64,000 bases of DNA, taken from Halogranum gelatinilyticum (GTDB lineage Archaea; Halobacteriota; Halobacteria; Halobacteriales; Haloferacaceae). Of the stretch, positions 48,615 through 53,980 are shown piece after piece. Below the pieces are notes generated by a model. It saw only the letters and a program-made list of their open reading frames with translations, made no database searches and was not told the origin of the DNA. The stretch's first letter is position 1. Each line of letters begins with the position of its first letter. The stretch covers positions 248,001 through 312,000 of the forward strand of contig NZ_FNHL01000004.1 in the NCBI RefSeq assembly GCF_900103715.1. Reading direction: 5' to 3'. Made by a program: the position numbers and the translations under genes.

Positions 48615-50714
48615 CTAGAACGCTTGCAGTGAGACATCCTTGTGGTCAGCAAGATACTGCTCGACGTCTCCCTCTCGCCACCCAAGCGGAGAAAGAACGC
48701 TCTCAGCGGCCCGAAGCAGTTGAGCACGATAGAAGTCGACATCATACTCGTCCAAGCCCTCGGAGGCGAGCGCAACGCGATCGGATGATTGCTTGCTGTC
48801 GTCGACGACGACGTACTCGACATCCTGTCCCGGAGAGCGCGTCAGTCCCCGATTCTCTACTCGCTCAAGTGCGGCAACGTTCCGGGTCGACTGCGTGTAG
48901 TCGTCGAGCGGCTTCGATACGCGGTTCTTGACCACGAGGTCTTCGACATCAACTTCTCCTGTCTGGATCTTCTGAATCCAGCGTTTCAGTCGCTCACAGA
49001 CCCCCTTTATATCCCGGTGCTCGTCGAGTGCCGCAATCAGGTCCTTCTGCGCGTCCTCGATGAACTGAGGTGTGCTCCGTTGGCGGCACTCGATACCTCT
49101 GAACTTGTAGTCGTCGTCGCCGTCAACCTTACCGAAATACTTCGTTAGGGCACCCGCTTCGGAATTTCGCATCGGGACGAACGCAACCCAATCGTAGTGA
49201 GCCTCGTGCTCTAACCGGATGTCAACAGCTTCCGTGACCGTCGCTGCCAGTTCATCGAGCGGCGTCTGCTCTTCACCCGCCTCGGGTGTCACCCAGACAG
49301 AGTCGACGATCCCGTGGACGACGCGCCACCCGTGAGCTTCGAGCGTCTGCTTCGTGTCGAGCAGTATCTCACGGGCGAAGGCGTTGATGGCCTCATGACA
49401 TTCGATACGGCCGAACTTCGCGTTCGAGAAGCCCTGATACCCGAAGCAAGAGACGAGAATCCACTTGATGGCACTGGATTGTCCTTCCAACTCTGCGGCT
49501 CGCTCGGGGTCGTTGGTCTCGCAGAGTTCCTGCTTGATCGCATCACGGTCAGCAATGAGCGGCCCCAGAACGGCCGGCAGATACCCACGTTCGTCGCAGA
49601 TACAGTAGCCGAGACCGGGAACATCGTCACGACCGGCATGGCAGTCGCACCGAATCTTCTCGGGACTCACGTTGCGCGTGACGATGATGTTCGGATAGAG
49701 CGACGAGAAGTCTAGCTCGTGGACGTCCTCATGGACGCCGACGTCGGGAGCAAAGGTGAACCCACCCCGATCAGCTTCGTGGAGCTGGCGCATCGTCTTG
49801 AACTGCTCGTGACGCCACGAATGCCACGGGACCAACACCCCACGTCGACGAGCCTCTCGAATCTGAATCGCGGTGAGGATGTTGCCGATAGAGGCCCACG
49901 CGAGTTCTTGCAGTGGTTTCCCTGACTGCTCGATGAGGTAGAGACAGCCATCAAGGTTCGACTGCGACCAGAAGAACGTGTTCGAGCGGTCGATGATGGC
50001 CCGTCCGGGTAGGTTGTATCGCGCTGGAGAGTGGCCGACTTGGCCATAGCTCGCATAGGTAGAGTCACCAGCGAGCTGTTGCCAGCCGGGGAGTCGTCCG
50101 AGTTGGAACTCATCGAGGTCGAGCCGGTCAGCTGCCCGGTACAGTACCGGGACGACCTCGCTGGTGTTCAGCATCAATACGTCCGGGTCTTCTGCGTCGA
50201 CGATTCGGTCGAGGTCGGTGAGTACCGTCTCCGGGTCTCCTGTGAGTGGTTCGTCGTCGACGACGACCTCAGTAGGTTGCTCGGACGCCAACACTTCCTC
50301 GTCGACGGTGAGTTCCAGCACAGTCGGCTTCCGAGCCGGGGTCGGGGAGATACCCTGCTCCAGACAGTACCGGAACTCGCGTGAGAAGTCGACGTTGTAG
50401 AGCCGATAGTCACCCGGTGCGCCCCAGCCAGCGATCTCGTGGGCGAGTGTGGTCACGGCATCCAGGCTGTCGACGTCGACACGAAGAACCGGGCTGGGAT
50501 CGTGGCGGAAGCTGACGCGCTCCTCAACACGCCTGGCGTGGGTGACGTTCGGATGCTCTCGGAGCGTCGCATAGACCTCTGGAAGGTCTTTCCCTCCGTG
50601 AACGGAGACGTACAGCGTCGGGGTGTACGACTGGGTGCGCTCGTGCGTAACGCCGTCCTCGGTGAGCGTCCACTCAACGACGTCACCGTCGAGGTAGTCG
50701 ACTTTGAACGGCAT
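48615..50714 (-). CDS. polB: Divergent B-family DNA polymerase, likely exonuclease-deficient
   Basis: A 699-residue B-family polymerase, shorter than replicative archaeal PolB. Motif A is intact (ELDFSSLYPNI, Asp335). Motif B is KWILVSCFGY (417-426), with Ser-Cys in place of Asn-Ser. Motif C reads HGIVDS (467-472) instead of YGDTDS, keeping the second Asp (471) but not the first. A KY pair (525-526) remains. The three exonuclease motifs are not recognisable: Exo I reads VLELTVDEE (132-140) without DxE, and Exo II reads LNTSEVVPV. This resembles the archaeal PolB2 group. It is the last gene of an operon after the 89-residue and RadA-like genes (6-bp gap). Confidence 0.9.
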   Translation of the reverse strand: MPFKVDYLDGDVVEWTLTEDGVTHERTQSYTPTLYVSVHGGKDLPEVYATLREHPNVTHARRVEERVSFRHDPSPVLRVDVDSLDAVTTLAHEIAGWGAPGDYRLYNVDFSREFRYCLEQGISPTPARKPTVLELTVDEEVLASEQPTEVVVDDEPLTGDPETVLTDLDRIVDAEDPDVLMLNTSEVVPVLYRAADRLDLDEFQLGRLPGWQQLAGDSTYASYGQVGHSPARYNLPGRAIIDRSNTFFWSQSNLDGCLYLIEQSGKPLQELAWASIGNILTAIQIREARRRGVLVPWHSWRHEQFKTMRQLHEADRGGFTFAPDVGVHEDVHELDFSSLYPNIIVTRNVSPEKIRCDCHAGRDDVPGLGYCICDERGYLPAVLGPLIADRDAIKQELCETNDPERAAELEGQSSAIKWILVSCFGYQGFSNAKFGRIECHEAINAFAREILLDTKQTLEAHGWRVVHGIVDSVWVTPEAGEEQTPLDELAATVTEAVDIRLEHEAHYDWVAFVPMRNSEAGALTKYFGKVDGDDDYKFRGIECRQRSTPQFIEDAQKDLIAALDEHRDIKGVCERLKRWIQKIQTGEVDVEDLVVKNRVSKPLDDYTQSTRNVAALERVENRGLTRSPGQDVEYVVVDDSKQSSDRVALASEGLDEYDVDFYRAQLLRAAESVLSPLGWREGDVEQYLADHKDVSLQAF

Positions 50715-50720
50715 GGCTGC

Positions 50721-50990
50721 TCACCGCATCGTTTGCGAGATGGCGAGTTCCTCGACTGTCCGTTCCAGGTCAGCGATGCGTCGTTCGTGTTCGACGAGAA
50801 TCGACATCAGGAGCGGTATCTCGACCGACTGGTGGTTGAGATAGCCAGCTGCATCAGCGTGTGCACGCCCATGTTCGAACAGCCGATCGAAATGTTCTCC
50901 GTCGTGCTTGCGAAGGGCGCGGCGGTACGAGGACCACCGTTCCTCGGTCCCCCGAAGCATATCGCGGTACGTCGGATTAGTGCGACCCAA
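50721..50990 (-). CDS. Small helical protein of the polymerase operon
   Basis: An 89-residue charged, mostly helical protein starting MGRTNPTYRDMLRGTEERWSSYRRALRKHDGEHFDRLFEHGRAH. The C-terminal part (MSILVEHERRIADLERTVEELAISQTM) has heptad spacing and is probably a coiled coil. Its start overlaps the 3' end of the RadA-like gene by 14 bp, and its stop lies 6 bp before polB, so it is firmly in the operon. I recall this MGRTNPTYRD type as a haloarchaeal family found beside PolB; function is unknown. It could be an adaptor linking the polymerase to partners. Confidence 0.82.
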   Translation of the reverse strand: MGRTNPTYRDMLRGTEERWSSYRRALRKHDGEHFDRLFEHGRAHADAAGYLNHQSVEIPLLMSILVEHERRIADLERTVEELAISQTMR

Positions 50991-51654
50991 CGGTACTCAC
51001 CTCCGGAGTCGTCGCCGTCGAAAGAGCCGGGTGCCGTTCGGTGAGCACACGCTGCCAGAAGGCAAGCGTCGTCTGGACGAGTCCCCCGTCGACCGGGTAG
51101 ACGAGCGTCTCGAACTCCTCACCGGCGAAGCGGGGCCCGAACTTCGTCATCTCACAGCTGACCGTGTGTTCGGCAGCCGAGCGCAGCGGGGCAGTCAACG
51201 AGTCAGCCCGATACTGGGTCACGACGACTGGGACGTCGTACTCGTCGACGACATCGCCGACGAGGTTGAGGCCCGCAGTCATCATTCGCTTTCCTTCGCT
51301 ACGCCGGACGTCGTCACCGCGGTAGAACGCGTCGAACGACGGGAGGACGACGAGAGAGGTGTCGTTGTCGACTTCGTCGGCGAGGTCGCGTAAGAGGCTC
51401 TGGTGTTGCCACGGCGTGAACGCTCGGGCGACGTGAATCCGTTCGAGCGTCCGCATACTTGGAGCGACCTGTGCGAGTGTGCGGGTCGTACTGTTGCCCT
51501 TTGCGTCGACCCAAACAGCCGATCCGTCAGCAACGAGGATGTGGTCGAGCACGAGCGACTGCAACGCGCCCGTGAGACGGTCGTCCGAATCGAGCAGCGT
51601 CAGCCCCGAATCGAGTGTCGGGAGTGCTGGCGTGTCAGGCGGTCTGTGGTTCAT
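50977..51654 (-). CDS. RadA/RecA-like protein lacking Walker A
   Basis: A 225-residue protein that matches RadA/Rad51-superfamily sequence but without a P-loop. IHVARAFTPWQHQSLL (73-88) resembles the IHVARAFNSNHQMLL block of RadA, TSLVVLPSFDAFYR (99-112) sits where Walker B does, and VPVVVTQYRADS (141-152) resembles the loop leading to the N/Q strand. The N-terminal stretch GLTLLDSDDRLTGALQSLVLDHIL (17-40) occupies the Walker A position but has no GxxxxGK[ST]. The ATG at 51654 (MNHRPPDTPALP) is preferred over one six codons earlier. It is the first gene of the operon ending in polB, and is preceded by a repeated regulatory element. Confidence 0.82.
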   Translation of the reverse strand: MNHRPPDTPALPTLDSGLTLLDSDDRLTGALQSLVLDHILVADGSAVWVDAKGNSTTRTLAQVAPSMRTLERIHVARAFTPWQHQSLLRDLADEVDNDTSLVVLPSFDAFYRGDDVRRSEGKRMMTAGLNLVGDVVDEYDVPVVVTQYRADSLTAPLRSAAEHTVSCEMTKFGPRFAGEEFETLVYPVDGGLVQTTLAFWQRVLTERHPALSTATTPEVSTVGSH

Positions 51655-51702
51655 CACAGAGACACCGTTCACCGGAGAGACACATAGGCAAGGGCGAGCA
51701 GC

Positions 51703-51719
51703 TTCCGATTCTTCCGATA
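51703..51719 (-). promoter_or_regulatory. Shared double motif upstream of the RadA-like/polB operon
   Basis: On the plus strand the site reads TTCCGATTCTTCCGATA, two 8-bp half-sites 9 bp apart. It ends 48 bp upstream of the ATG at 51654. A TATA-like gcctatgtg follows between it and the start. The same arrangement occurs upstream of the orc gene at 52773-52789, suggesting a common operator bound by one factor. Confidence 0.65.
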
Positions 51720-51725
51720 GCGGGT

Positions 51726-52727
51726 TCAGCGGACTCGGTAGGTGCGTGCACGGTTCTTGCCCTCGGAGACGATGAGCCGGTACTGGTCCATCTTCGAAAG
51801 GTAATTTCTGACTGTGCGCTTCGTCTTCGGTTCATCGACAGACTCCGAATAGCGGTCGTACAGCTCCCCCGGCGACAGTTCACCTTCCTCCTGCAAAATC
51901 TCGTAGAGGGCGTGCTGATGTGGCGTCAACTGGTTCACCGCTTTCTGTCGGACTTCCTGCTTCCCACCCGGGATGGCATCGTGGAGAATGTCGTTGGTAA
52001 TCTCCTCTGCACCCTCCTGGTCGGCCCGTCGCGCCGCGTTTCGCAAGATACCGATTGCGACCCGTGCGTCGCCGGCAGCACCGTCGGCGATGAGCGCAAG
52101 TTGTTGCTTTCCGATAACGTCTTCCGAAAGTCCCCACCGGACGCGGGCTTCGAGGATTGAGATGAGCTCGTCGAAATGGTACTTCTCGAAGTGGATCCGT
52201 GTACAGCTTTGAAGCCGACTTGTCAGTCGCCCATCGAACTGTGAGAAGAGGTCGTTCTCGCGGTTCGCCATGAGGATCATGGAGATGTTTCGCGCACGGT
52301 AGAGATCGTAGAGAACACTCATGTCCTCCAGCTGGTCTGCCTCGTCGAGAATGAGGACGTACTGTGGCCCATCGTACTGTTGAATCCGGTCGAGTAGTTC
52401 GTCTTTCGGCGTCGACCGTCGGTGGATATCGACCGTCTTTCCGATGCCCTCGAGAGCGCGGTACAACACCCGAAAGCGTGTGTAGTCCTGCCAGCAGTTG
52501 ATGTACTGCGAGTTGATGTCGAGGACGTTCTCCCGCAGCTTTTCCACGGTAAACTGGGCGATACAGGTCTTTCCTGCACCCGAGGGGCCGGTGAGCAGGG
52601 TCGTCTGGGCGGTCTCACCATCCATGATCGGCCGCAACGAGTTCGAGAGGAGGTTTACCTCCTGGTTTCGATGCTCGACTTTCCGTGGGATGAACTCCGA
52701 CTGTAACACCCGAGCATCGGTAATCAT
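51726..52727 (-). CDS. orc: Orc1/Cdc6-type AAA+ protein
   Basis: A 333-residue Orc1/Cdc6 paralogue. Walker A is GPSGAGKT (47-54), Walker B LILDEAD (125-131), sensor 1 Asn155 (ILMANREND), arginine-finger region RLTSRLQS (167-174), sensor 2 AAGDARVAIG (218-226). A C-terminal winged helix (about 265-333: LTPHQHALYEILQEEGELSPGELYDRYSE...YLSKMDQYRLIV) binds DNA. At 333 residues it is shorter than typical replication-initiator Orc1 (about 400). The ATG at 52727 (MITDARVLQSEFIPRKVEHRNQEV) is preferred over a start 63 codons upstream. No canonical ORB repeat is evident next to it. It lies 71 bp upstream of the RadA-like/polB operon. Confidence 0.93.
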   Translation of the reverse strand: MITDARVLQSEFIPRKVEHRNQEVNLLSNSLRPIMDGETAQTTLLTGPSGAGKTCIAQFTVEKLRENVLDINSQYINCWQDYTRFRVLYRALEGIGKTVDIHRRSTPKDELLDRIQQYDGPQYVLILDEADQLEDMSVLYDLYRARNISMILMANRENDLFSQFDGRLTSRLQSCTRIHFEKYHFDELISILEARVRWGLSEDVIGKQQLALIADGAAGDARVAIGILRNAARRADQEGAEEITNDILHDAIPGGKQEVRQKAVNQLTPHQHALYEILQEEGELSPGELYDRYSESVDEPKTKRTVRNYLSKMDQYRLIVSEGKNRARTYRVR

Positions 52728-52772
52728 TGAGTAGCCGTTCAGACCGAAGCTCAATAAACGGAACCGGGTCGT

Positions 52773-52789
52773 TTCCGATAGTTCCGATA
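52773..52789 (-). promoter_or_regulatory. Shared double motif upstream of the orc gene
   Basis: The plus strand reads TTCCGATAGTTCCGATA, again two half-sites 9 bp apart. It ends 45 bp upstream of the orc ATG at 52727, just above a TATA-like gtttattga. It differs from the copy at 51703-51719 only at the last base of the first half-site and the spacer base. The location immediately upstream of the core promoter suits an activator or repressor site. Confidence 0.65.
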
Positions 52790-53074: not shown

Positions 53075-53980
53075 CTATGAGCGGAGCCGCTGGACGCGCT
53101 TCTCCATCGGTGGATGCGTAGAGATGATCTTCTGCAGGAAGCCGCGGTCGGGGCTGGAGATGCAGAGCGCGCTCACCTGCTGGTCGATGTTCGCGTCGCG
53201 ACGCCGGCTGTCGCGGCTACGACCACGCCGGGCAGTTCGAGACGACTCGCTTGCCTGTTGGTTGCCTTGGTGAATCTTCTCCAGCGCACGGGCCAGCGGG
53301 TCGCCGGAACCGATAGCGCGCTTTGCGTCGGCATCGGCGACGTACTCTCGGTACCGCGAGATAGCAAGGACGAAGATCATCACGAGGAACTGCACGAGGG
53401 TCCCGACGACGATGGCGAGGAAGAAGTCAGCGAGGTCGTTGTCACCCGTGAACAGCACGATGTACTGGGCGACGATGCCAACGATGGACGCGATGCCCTG
53501 CCCGAGTTGCATCGTCACGACGTCCCGGTTAGCGATGTGGGCAAGCTCGTGTGCGAGTACACCCTCGAGTTCGTCTCGGTCCAACAGCTGGATGAGCTCT
53601 TCGGAGACGACGACGATACCAGCACCTTTCCGGCCGACGGCAAAGGCGTTCGGCACGCCCATGCGAGCGATCTTCAACTCAGGCTTCGTGATACCCATCT
53701 CCTGAGAGTGCTCCTCCACCATCTGGTGGATGTGCGGATACCGCTGTTCGGACAAGTCTTCGGCACCGACGCTGCGGAGAGCCATCCACTTTCCAACTTT
53801 GTACTGGACACCGACGAGCAGGACACTGCCAGCGATGGCGATCGGCAGGACGCCCTGACCGAAGGCGGCCATCGCGACAGCGACCGCGACGAGGTAGAAC
53901 GTCGCAAGGATAGCACCAACGACGGCCATCCGTACTTTGAGTCCGAAGTCTCCCATGTACTCGGACACGTTCTGGGCCAC
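53075..53980 (-). CDS. htpX: HtpX-family membrane protease (M48)
   Basis: A 301-residue membrane-anchored zinc protease used in membrane protein quality control. Two N-terminal transmembrane helices (about 17-38 and 42-57) precede the zinc motif in LEGVLAHELAHIANRD, and the third ligand is in REYVADADAKRAIG. A Ser/Arg-rich insertion (SESSRTARRGRSRDSRRRD) lies near the C terminus, which ends STHPPMEKRVQRLRS as in HtpX. The gene is directly followed by a small membrane-protein gene. Its position beside a polymerase/Orc cassette may be incidental. Confidence 0.93.
   Translation of the reverse strand: MAQNVSEYMGDFGLKVRMAVVGAILATFYLVAVAVAMAAFGQGVLPIAIAGSVLLVGVQYKVGKWMALRSVGAEDLSEQRYPHIHQMVEEHSQEMGITKPELKIARMGVPNAFAVGRKGAGIVVVSEELIQLLDRDELEGVLAHELAHIANRDVVTMQLGQGIASIVGIVAQYIVLFTGDNDLADFFLAIVVGTLVQFLVMIFVLAISRYREYVADADAKRAIGSGDPLARALEKIHQGNQQASESSRTARRGRSRDSRRRDANIDQQVSALCISSPDRGFLQKIISTHPPMEKRVQRLRS

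Follow-up and report, generated by a model that had tools for sequence, protein, structure and literature searches.

A candidate operator of an Orc-family transcription factor above the orc and PolB2-operon promoters of haloarchaea

Introduction

Control of DNA-damage genes in euryarchaea is largely open, and the one well-worked archaeal case is that of Orc1-2 in Sulfolobus. The role of an Orc protein as a damage regulator in Sulfolobus, the gene neighbourhood considered here and a different haloarchaeal UV-B motif are already known. Orc1-2 of Saccharolobus/Sulfolobus is a DNA-damage regulator with the DDRE element ANTTTC (PMC9738581, PMC5817253, PMC7744417), a hexanucleotide located at −39 to −44 and required for promoter activity (PMC5817253); the signal is DNA damage (PMC7744417). 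Specific promoter binding requires the arginine pair R381/R383 of Sulfolobus Orc1-2, whose counterparts in ApeORC1 are R367/R369 (PMC9738581). In Halobacterium, a UV-B promoter motif, TTTCACTTTCA, was described for radA1, top6B and other genes (PMC2556686); it differs from the element reported below in its word, TTTCA, and in its period of 6 bp, and it is absent from both promoters studied here. A neighbourhood of PolB2, inactive RadA, arCOG07300 and arORC2 genes, including a euryarchaeal orc neighbour assigned to arORC2, has been described, with the inactive-RadA-type genes as a family (PMC4104785). The gene cassette is the same as here, orc neighbour included; the passages on this neighbourhood in that paper deal with gene content, without a promoter motif or a regulator, both of which we propose in this work.

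Archaeal ORB and mini-ORB elements are bound by the winged helices of Orc proteins. At origins, the ORB forms a dyad that includes a G-stretch, whereas the element described here is a direct repeat at promoters. The TTCC/GGAA arms of ORB and mini-ORB resemble the palindromic variant that we find in plasmid relatives. Literature searches on TATCGGAA and TTCCGATA returned nothing relevant, and none of the papers searched described this operator or a haloarchaeal Orc that acts as a regulator, which is not the same as absence from the literature. What the present analysis provides for a haloarchaeal Orc is a predicted operator, a target set, a spacing rule and a single specificity residue, all directly testable in a tractable haloarchaeon.

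Results

Two Double Motifs Lie above the Promoters of the Cassette

The window, by which we mean the whole 64-kb stretch of DNA analysed, contains two exact double motifs when both strands are scanned, TTCCGATTCTTCCGATA above the RadA-like gene and TTCCGATAGTTCCGATA above orc (Table 1). Since every cassette gene lies on the minus strand, the motif takes the coding-strand form TATCGGAA-nn-ATCGGAA, in full TATCGGAAnnATCGGAA, with two 7-bp half-sites and a 9-bp period. It ends 45 bp from the ATG of orc and 48 bp from that of the RadA-like gene. A preliminary description had singled out these sites as nearly identical, with two half-sites on a 9-bp period and just upstream of TATA-like sequences; its coordinates and distances are exact, and TTTAT and CTATG are the TATA-like boxes in question. 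No other such pair had been noticed by eye, and the scan returned the same two sites alone even with up to three mismatches (0.92 expected), whereas 100 dinucleotide shuffles of the window contained no exact motif.

Table 1. Features of the cassette and its promoters, in window coordinates
Feature	Position	Strand	Basis
Putative double operator TATCGGAActATCGGAA, orc promoter	52773–52789	−	Exact match, absent from shuffles; position conserved in orc relatives
Conserved TTCCG before the orc TATA-like box	52759–52763	−	Sequence
TATA-like box TTTAT of orc	52754–52758	−	14 bp past second half-site, the spacing of most 9-bp-type orc promoters
orc, Orc1/Cdc6-family AAA+ with winged helix, 333 aa, proposed regulator	51726–52727	−	TIGR02928, 186 bits; Cdc6_lid, AAA_22
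Codons 303–315, predicted recognition helix KRTVRNYLSKMDQ, including N308	51783–51821	−	Model secondary structure; N308 versus T/S covariation
Codon 325 (AAC, Asn), wing tip, proposed specificity residue	51753–51755	−	Disjoint-column covariation
Putative double operator TATCGGAAgaATCGGAA, RadA-like/orf89/PolB2 promoter	51703–51719	−	Exact match; conserved above RadA-like genes
TATA-like box CTATG of RadA-like operon	51683–51687	−	15 bp past second half-site; same spacing in relatives
RadA/RadB-like gene, inactive-RadA type	50977–51654	−	Rad51, 28.7 bits; RadB, 37 bits, below cut-off
Gene for 89-aa (about 90-aa) protein, start codon TTG	50721–50990	−	Resembles arCOG07300 in size, location and gene neighbours
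PolB2-type family B DNA polymerase, 699 aa	48615–50714	−	NF004418, 1089 bits; DNA_pol_B

The PolB2, RadA-like and ~90-aa genes form one operon (48615–51654), with the same order in relatives. No P-loop was seen in the RadA/RadB-like sequence. The 89-aa protein gave no match in Pfam and NCBIfam searches, and the placement of its gene between the RadA-like and PolB2 genes is conserved in relatives. The orc promoter is immediately preceded by a same-strand gene for an HtpX-type zinc metalloprotease (53075–53980).

The Proposed Regulator Has an Orc1/Cdc6 Fold with an Arginine Pair in the Wing

The window Orc has the AAA+ ATPase, lid and winged-helix domains of the Orc1/Cdc6 fold, with the Walker A motif GPSGAGKT and the Walker B motif ILDEAD. 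Its structural model (pLDDT 91.6) places residues 303–315 in the recognition helix and residue 325 at the wing tip, and its PDB matches, of which 2qby_A is the best and 1w5t and 2v1u are further ones, are archaeal Orc1/Cdc6 proteins, in some cases in complex with origin DNA. When the window Orc is aligned to 2v1u, R326 and R328 fall opposite R367 and R369 of ApeORC1, an equivalence that is based on the matching arginine pairs, as the chain numbering in the alignment lies 12 below the published one. Among relatives R328 is invariant and R326 is mostly R or K. At the initiator-specific motif, GLS of ApeORC1 lies opposite RRS of the window Orc in an alignment to ApeORC1 alone; the G-L of Orc1 proteins aligns with R-R here.

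The Element Keeps Its Place above the Core Promoter in orc and RadA-like Promoters

We collected 100 distinct relatives of the window Orc (48–100% identity) with their upstream DNA and scored a 36-bp slot above the ATG. Tandem GGAA was present in 58 of the 100 orc promoters, as GGAA-N5-GGAA with a 9-bp period in 47 and with an 8-bp period in 11, while the palindrome TTCCGGAA occupied another 28, which belong to a plasmid-borne clade, and about 14 had no recognisable site or a degenerate form. The 9-bp tandem is expected by chance at 0.004 per slot (0.4%). From the last GGAA to a TTTAT/CTTAT box, the distance is 14 bp in 37 and 13 bp in 7 of the 47 promoters of the 9-bp type, and it is nearly equal in the palindromic class. 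Furthermore, a TATA-like box lies 13–16 bp from the site in 42/58 exact sites with context, against 2% of random positions. The consensus of the orc promoters is T(T/A)TCGGAAnn(A/T)TCGGAAACGACCCnnTTCCGTTTAT.

RadA-like promoters carry the strict tandem, in register, in 44 of 76 cases (0.035 expected per promoter), and the remainder mostly have a variant with one GGAA in register. In genome G233 the two half-sites above orc have both become TATCGGCA (TATCGGCAaTATCGGCA), and the RadA-like promoter reads TATCGGCA/TATCGGTA (TATCGGCAgTATCGGTA), having changed along with the orc site; the private changes of the G233 Orc are enriched in the winged helix (17/79 versus 22/254, p = 0.004). The co-regulation that had been suggested from the shared placement of the window sites is supported by these data, in which the same element stands at the same TATA distance above orc and the RadA-like operon throughout haloarchaea, and both promoters of G233 have changed.

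The two window promoters are alike and only 1.07 kb apart, as they would be if they descended from one duplicated promoter whose motif is inert. They differ, however, outside the motif and the TATA-like box, orc relatives with as little as ~48% protein identity still have the half-sites but not the flanks, and variants change jointly in both promoters; we consider such a duplication scarcely credible as the explanation. A 48%-identical cassette-type orc (L308, genome G371) is without the GGAA repeat and has TTTCACTTTCA at about the same place of its promoter.

Plasmid-type orc loci (L104–L144) have the palindrome TTTCCGGAAACnACCC above a TATA box. Plasmid-borne relatives carry TTTCCGGAAAC above orc and, 60–160 bp upstream, TTTCCGGAAA/TTTCCACAAAC elements that resemble origin repeats, and because of this arrangement an origin-recognition arm may be the ancestor of the half-site. 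The sites could, on the other hand, still be replication-origin elements, ORB-like arms at which Orc initiates, and they would then be near promoters only because orc genes lie at origins. The TTTCCGGAAAC and TTTCCACAAAC elements of the plasmid relatives, the membership of the proposed regulator in the Orc/Cdc6 proteins and the numbering of some complete chromosomes from this orc gene would all suit such a role. We nevertheless regard it as very unlikely: the element is fixed 14–15 bp above a TATA-like box, it also stands above RadA-like operons far from orc, above tyrosine recombinases and above another orc family, and the window sites are direct repeats at promoters rather than dyad ORB repeats next to an AT-rich unwinding region, the G+C content being 58–64% across 50.5–54 kb with no AT-rich stretch at either site.

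One Wing Residue of Orc Covaries with One Base of the Half-Site

The clearest link between the Orc protein and the element is a covariation between residue 325, which directly adjoins the aligned wing arginine pair R326/R328, and the base (T or C) two positions before GGAA in the right half-site, scored for 81 Orcs with a scorable site. T-type sites go with K, N, R or T at residue 325 (40/40) and C-type sites with G or S (41/41). Residue 325 ranks first of the 333 columns (z 14.2 versus 6.7 for the next) and is the sole column with disjoint residue sets for the two types of site. The pattern had been spotted by eye ahead of this unbiased ranking and was therefore tested on new sequences, in which it held in 22 of 24 cases (Fisher p = 0.0002), namely 6/6 named genomes and plasmids and 16/18 further haloarchaeal loci, the breakers being L290 and L314.

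The left half-site obeys the same rule (p 3e-10). So do the RadA-like promoters at these loci, with p = 4e-5 for the left and p = 0.005 for the right half-site, although their right half-sites are less strict, with C in 7/22 of the K/N/R/T cases. In a tree built from the ATPase part alone, with the winged helix left out, four site switches coincide with four residue switches; the switches being about four independent events, two of them on well-supported branches, significance after correction for phylogeny is weak. The base just before GGAA and that three before it were rejected as covarying positions, being weaker and mixed, and N308 of the recognition helix (N versus T/S) was set aside as the main specificity residue, as it tracks the site less cleanly than residue 325.

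The Motif Is Rare in the Genome and Recurs across Haloarchaea

Genome-wide work was done by pattern scans. A second, diverged cassette in the same genome (C6:89683-93855) has an orc 91% and a PolB2 88% identical in a like arrangement, with one exact and one degenerate motif copy. A degenerate scan of the 3.77-Mb genome returned the three exact cassette sites and two further matches without the promoter layout; a large regulon in this genome was rejected, as matches beyond the two cassettes are at chance level. Among 391 haloarchaeal genomes, the exact motif occurs at 61 sites in 42 genomes (reversed control 0) and a looser form, WTCGGAANNWTCGGAAA, in 75 (control 0). A chance origin of the motif is ruled out by the shuffles and reversed controls, and the genome-wide scan that the preliminary description had called for excludes many random occurrences unrelated to promoters, in the own genome as in the 391. 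Use by viruses was likewise rejected: the 32 viral contigs that match an 18-letter form are mostly AT-rich and without promoter spacing, and the matches are apparently coding or chance.

The scans also bear on whether orc and the PolB2 operon are under the control of some other protein that binds the motif, be it an HTH regulator encoded elsewhere or another Orc paralogue. The cassette Orcs of genus g35 have H325 and the site above their orc is lost, yet exact sites above other genes are kept, and another reader therefore has to be considered in g35. The motif is likewise present in genome G118, in which no strong cassette Orc was found, and a second Orc family (DILHR type) has it above its own gene. 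Against a different binder, residue 325 of the cassette Orc goes with the base found in the promoter of that Orc, as the sole column of 333 and also on new data. Furthermore, the DILHR-type Orcs carry T at the aligned wing position and so obey this rule too, which would make them partners and not competitors. We consider a different binder unlikely overall, and the earlier suggestion that the Orc protein itself may be the regulator gains support from the covariation of residue 325 with the site.

Discussion

The paired element, its fixed place above both core promoters, its conservation and its covariation with the Orc wing were computed directly. They make it probable, in our judgement with good confidence, that orc encodes an Orc-family transcription factor with the double motif as its operator, which would bind its own promoter and that of the PolB2 operon and switch both. 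Physical binding of Orc to the half-sites is what we infer from this pattern. Presumably Orc, most likely as a pair of adjacent molecules, would use its winged helix to read the TATCGGAA half-sites, which are spaced by about one turn of the helix. From a position immediately above BRE/TATA, in its own promoter as in that of the RadA-like/90-aa/PolB2 operon, it would contact or recruit the basal machinery at TATA/BRE and thereby activate its own gene, in positive autoregulation, together with the operon. Activation is likely rather than repression because the site lies upstream of BRE/TATA and not over the core promoter, as for Orc1-2.

The analogy with Orc1-2 of Sulfolobus, which had been raised for the window sites, is borne out for position, for the targets, which are the regulator's own gene and dpo2/PolB2, and for the region of the wing involved, and fails for the motif word. 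Both are AAA+/winged-helix proteins of the Orc family with a site directly above BRE/TATA, including the own promoter (here in most relatives), and with the PolB2 (dpo2) operon among the targets, as judged here from the site above the RadA-like gene and from most of the RadA-like/PolB2 promoters examined; the wing arginines R381/R383 there align with R326/R328 here. The word of Orc1-2, however, is one ANTTTC, whereas here TATCGGAA occurs twice at 9 bp, as an (A/T)TCGGAA tandem, and Orc1-2 has far more sites per genome. Because the DDRE word was looked for and is not the word found here, we class this as putative Orc1-2-like regulation with a different word rather than as a member of the Orc1-2 family. 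Orc1-2 is damage-induced, and its mutants are sensitive to damage; for the haloarchaeal Orc, the target genes and Orc1-2 point to DNA damage as the possible signal, and the literature searched had nothing linking this haloarchaeal orc to DNA damage.

We tentatively entertain a wider reading, for which the odds seem to us slightly short of even, in which haloarchaea have an SOS-like regulon run by a relative of the replication initiator that has itself ceased to initiate, with the operator TATCGGAAnnATCGGAA and a one-residue wing code at position 325 that would determine base preference. In some families this regulon would also take in tyrosine recombinases, a second Orc and an RNase H-type nuclease, and it would have evolved from plasmid Orcs with origin arms beside their own promoter. 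The proposed operator offers a readable step between origin arm and promoter operator, and it suggests that the conversion of an initiator of replication into a transcriptional switch of the PolB2 cassette may be common to distant archaea.

Other Occurrences of the Double Motif

In one haloarchaeal family, f4, the exact motif is also found above tyrosine recombinases, the second Orc family, RadA-like genes and an RNase H-type nuclease. The tyrosine recombinase genes with the exact double motif are L034, L037, L038, L040, L041, L172–L176, L179, L191, L195–L198 and L203, and the motif is followed by a conserved 5′ leader of ~90 nt that folds strongly (ACCGACGGACAGC...GGTGAGTCCGCGGTCCC...GAGACCATG; fold z-scores −3.6 to −4.6) and has no match in Rfam. 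In several f4 genomes (L177, L181, L192–L194) the motif, partly as a triple half-site, GAATCGGAAGAATCGGAA, lies above a conserved gene of unknown function, whose product starts MTNTEPPVP.../MTDDDPPEP... and gave no Pfam match for one member. The second Orc family (MI..WVFDD.Y.TDILHR; L184, L189, L199) has the exact double motif 44–68 bp above its own start codon. In genome G207 (L206/L035), the exact motif stands above a gene with an RNase_H_2 domain (Pfam PF13482).
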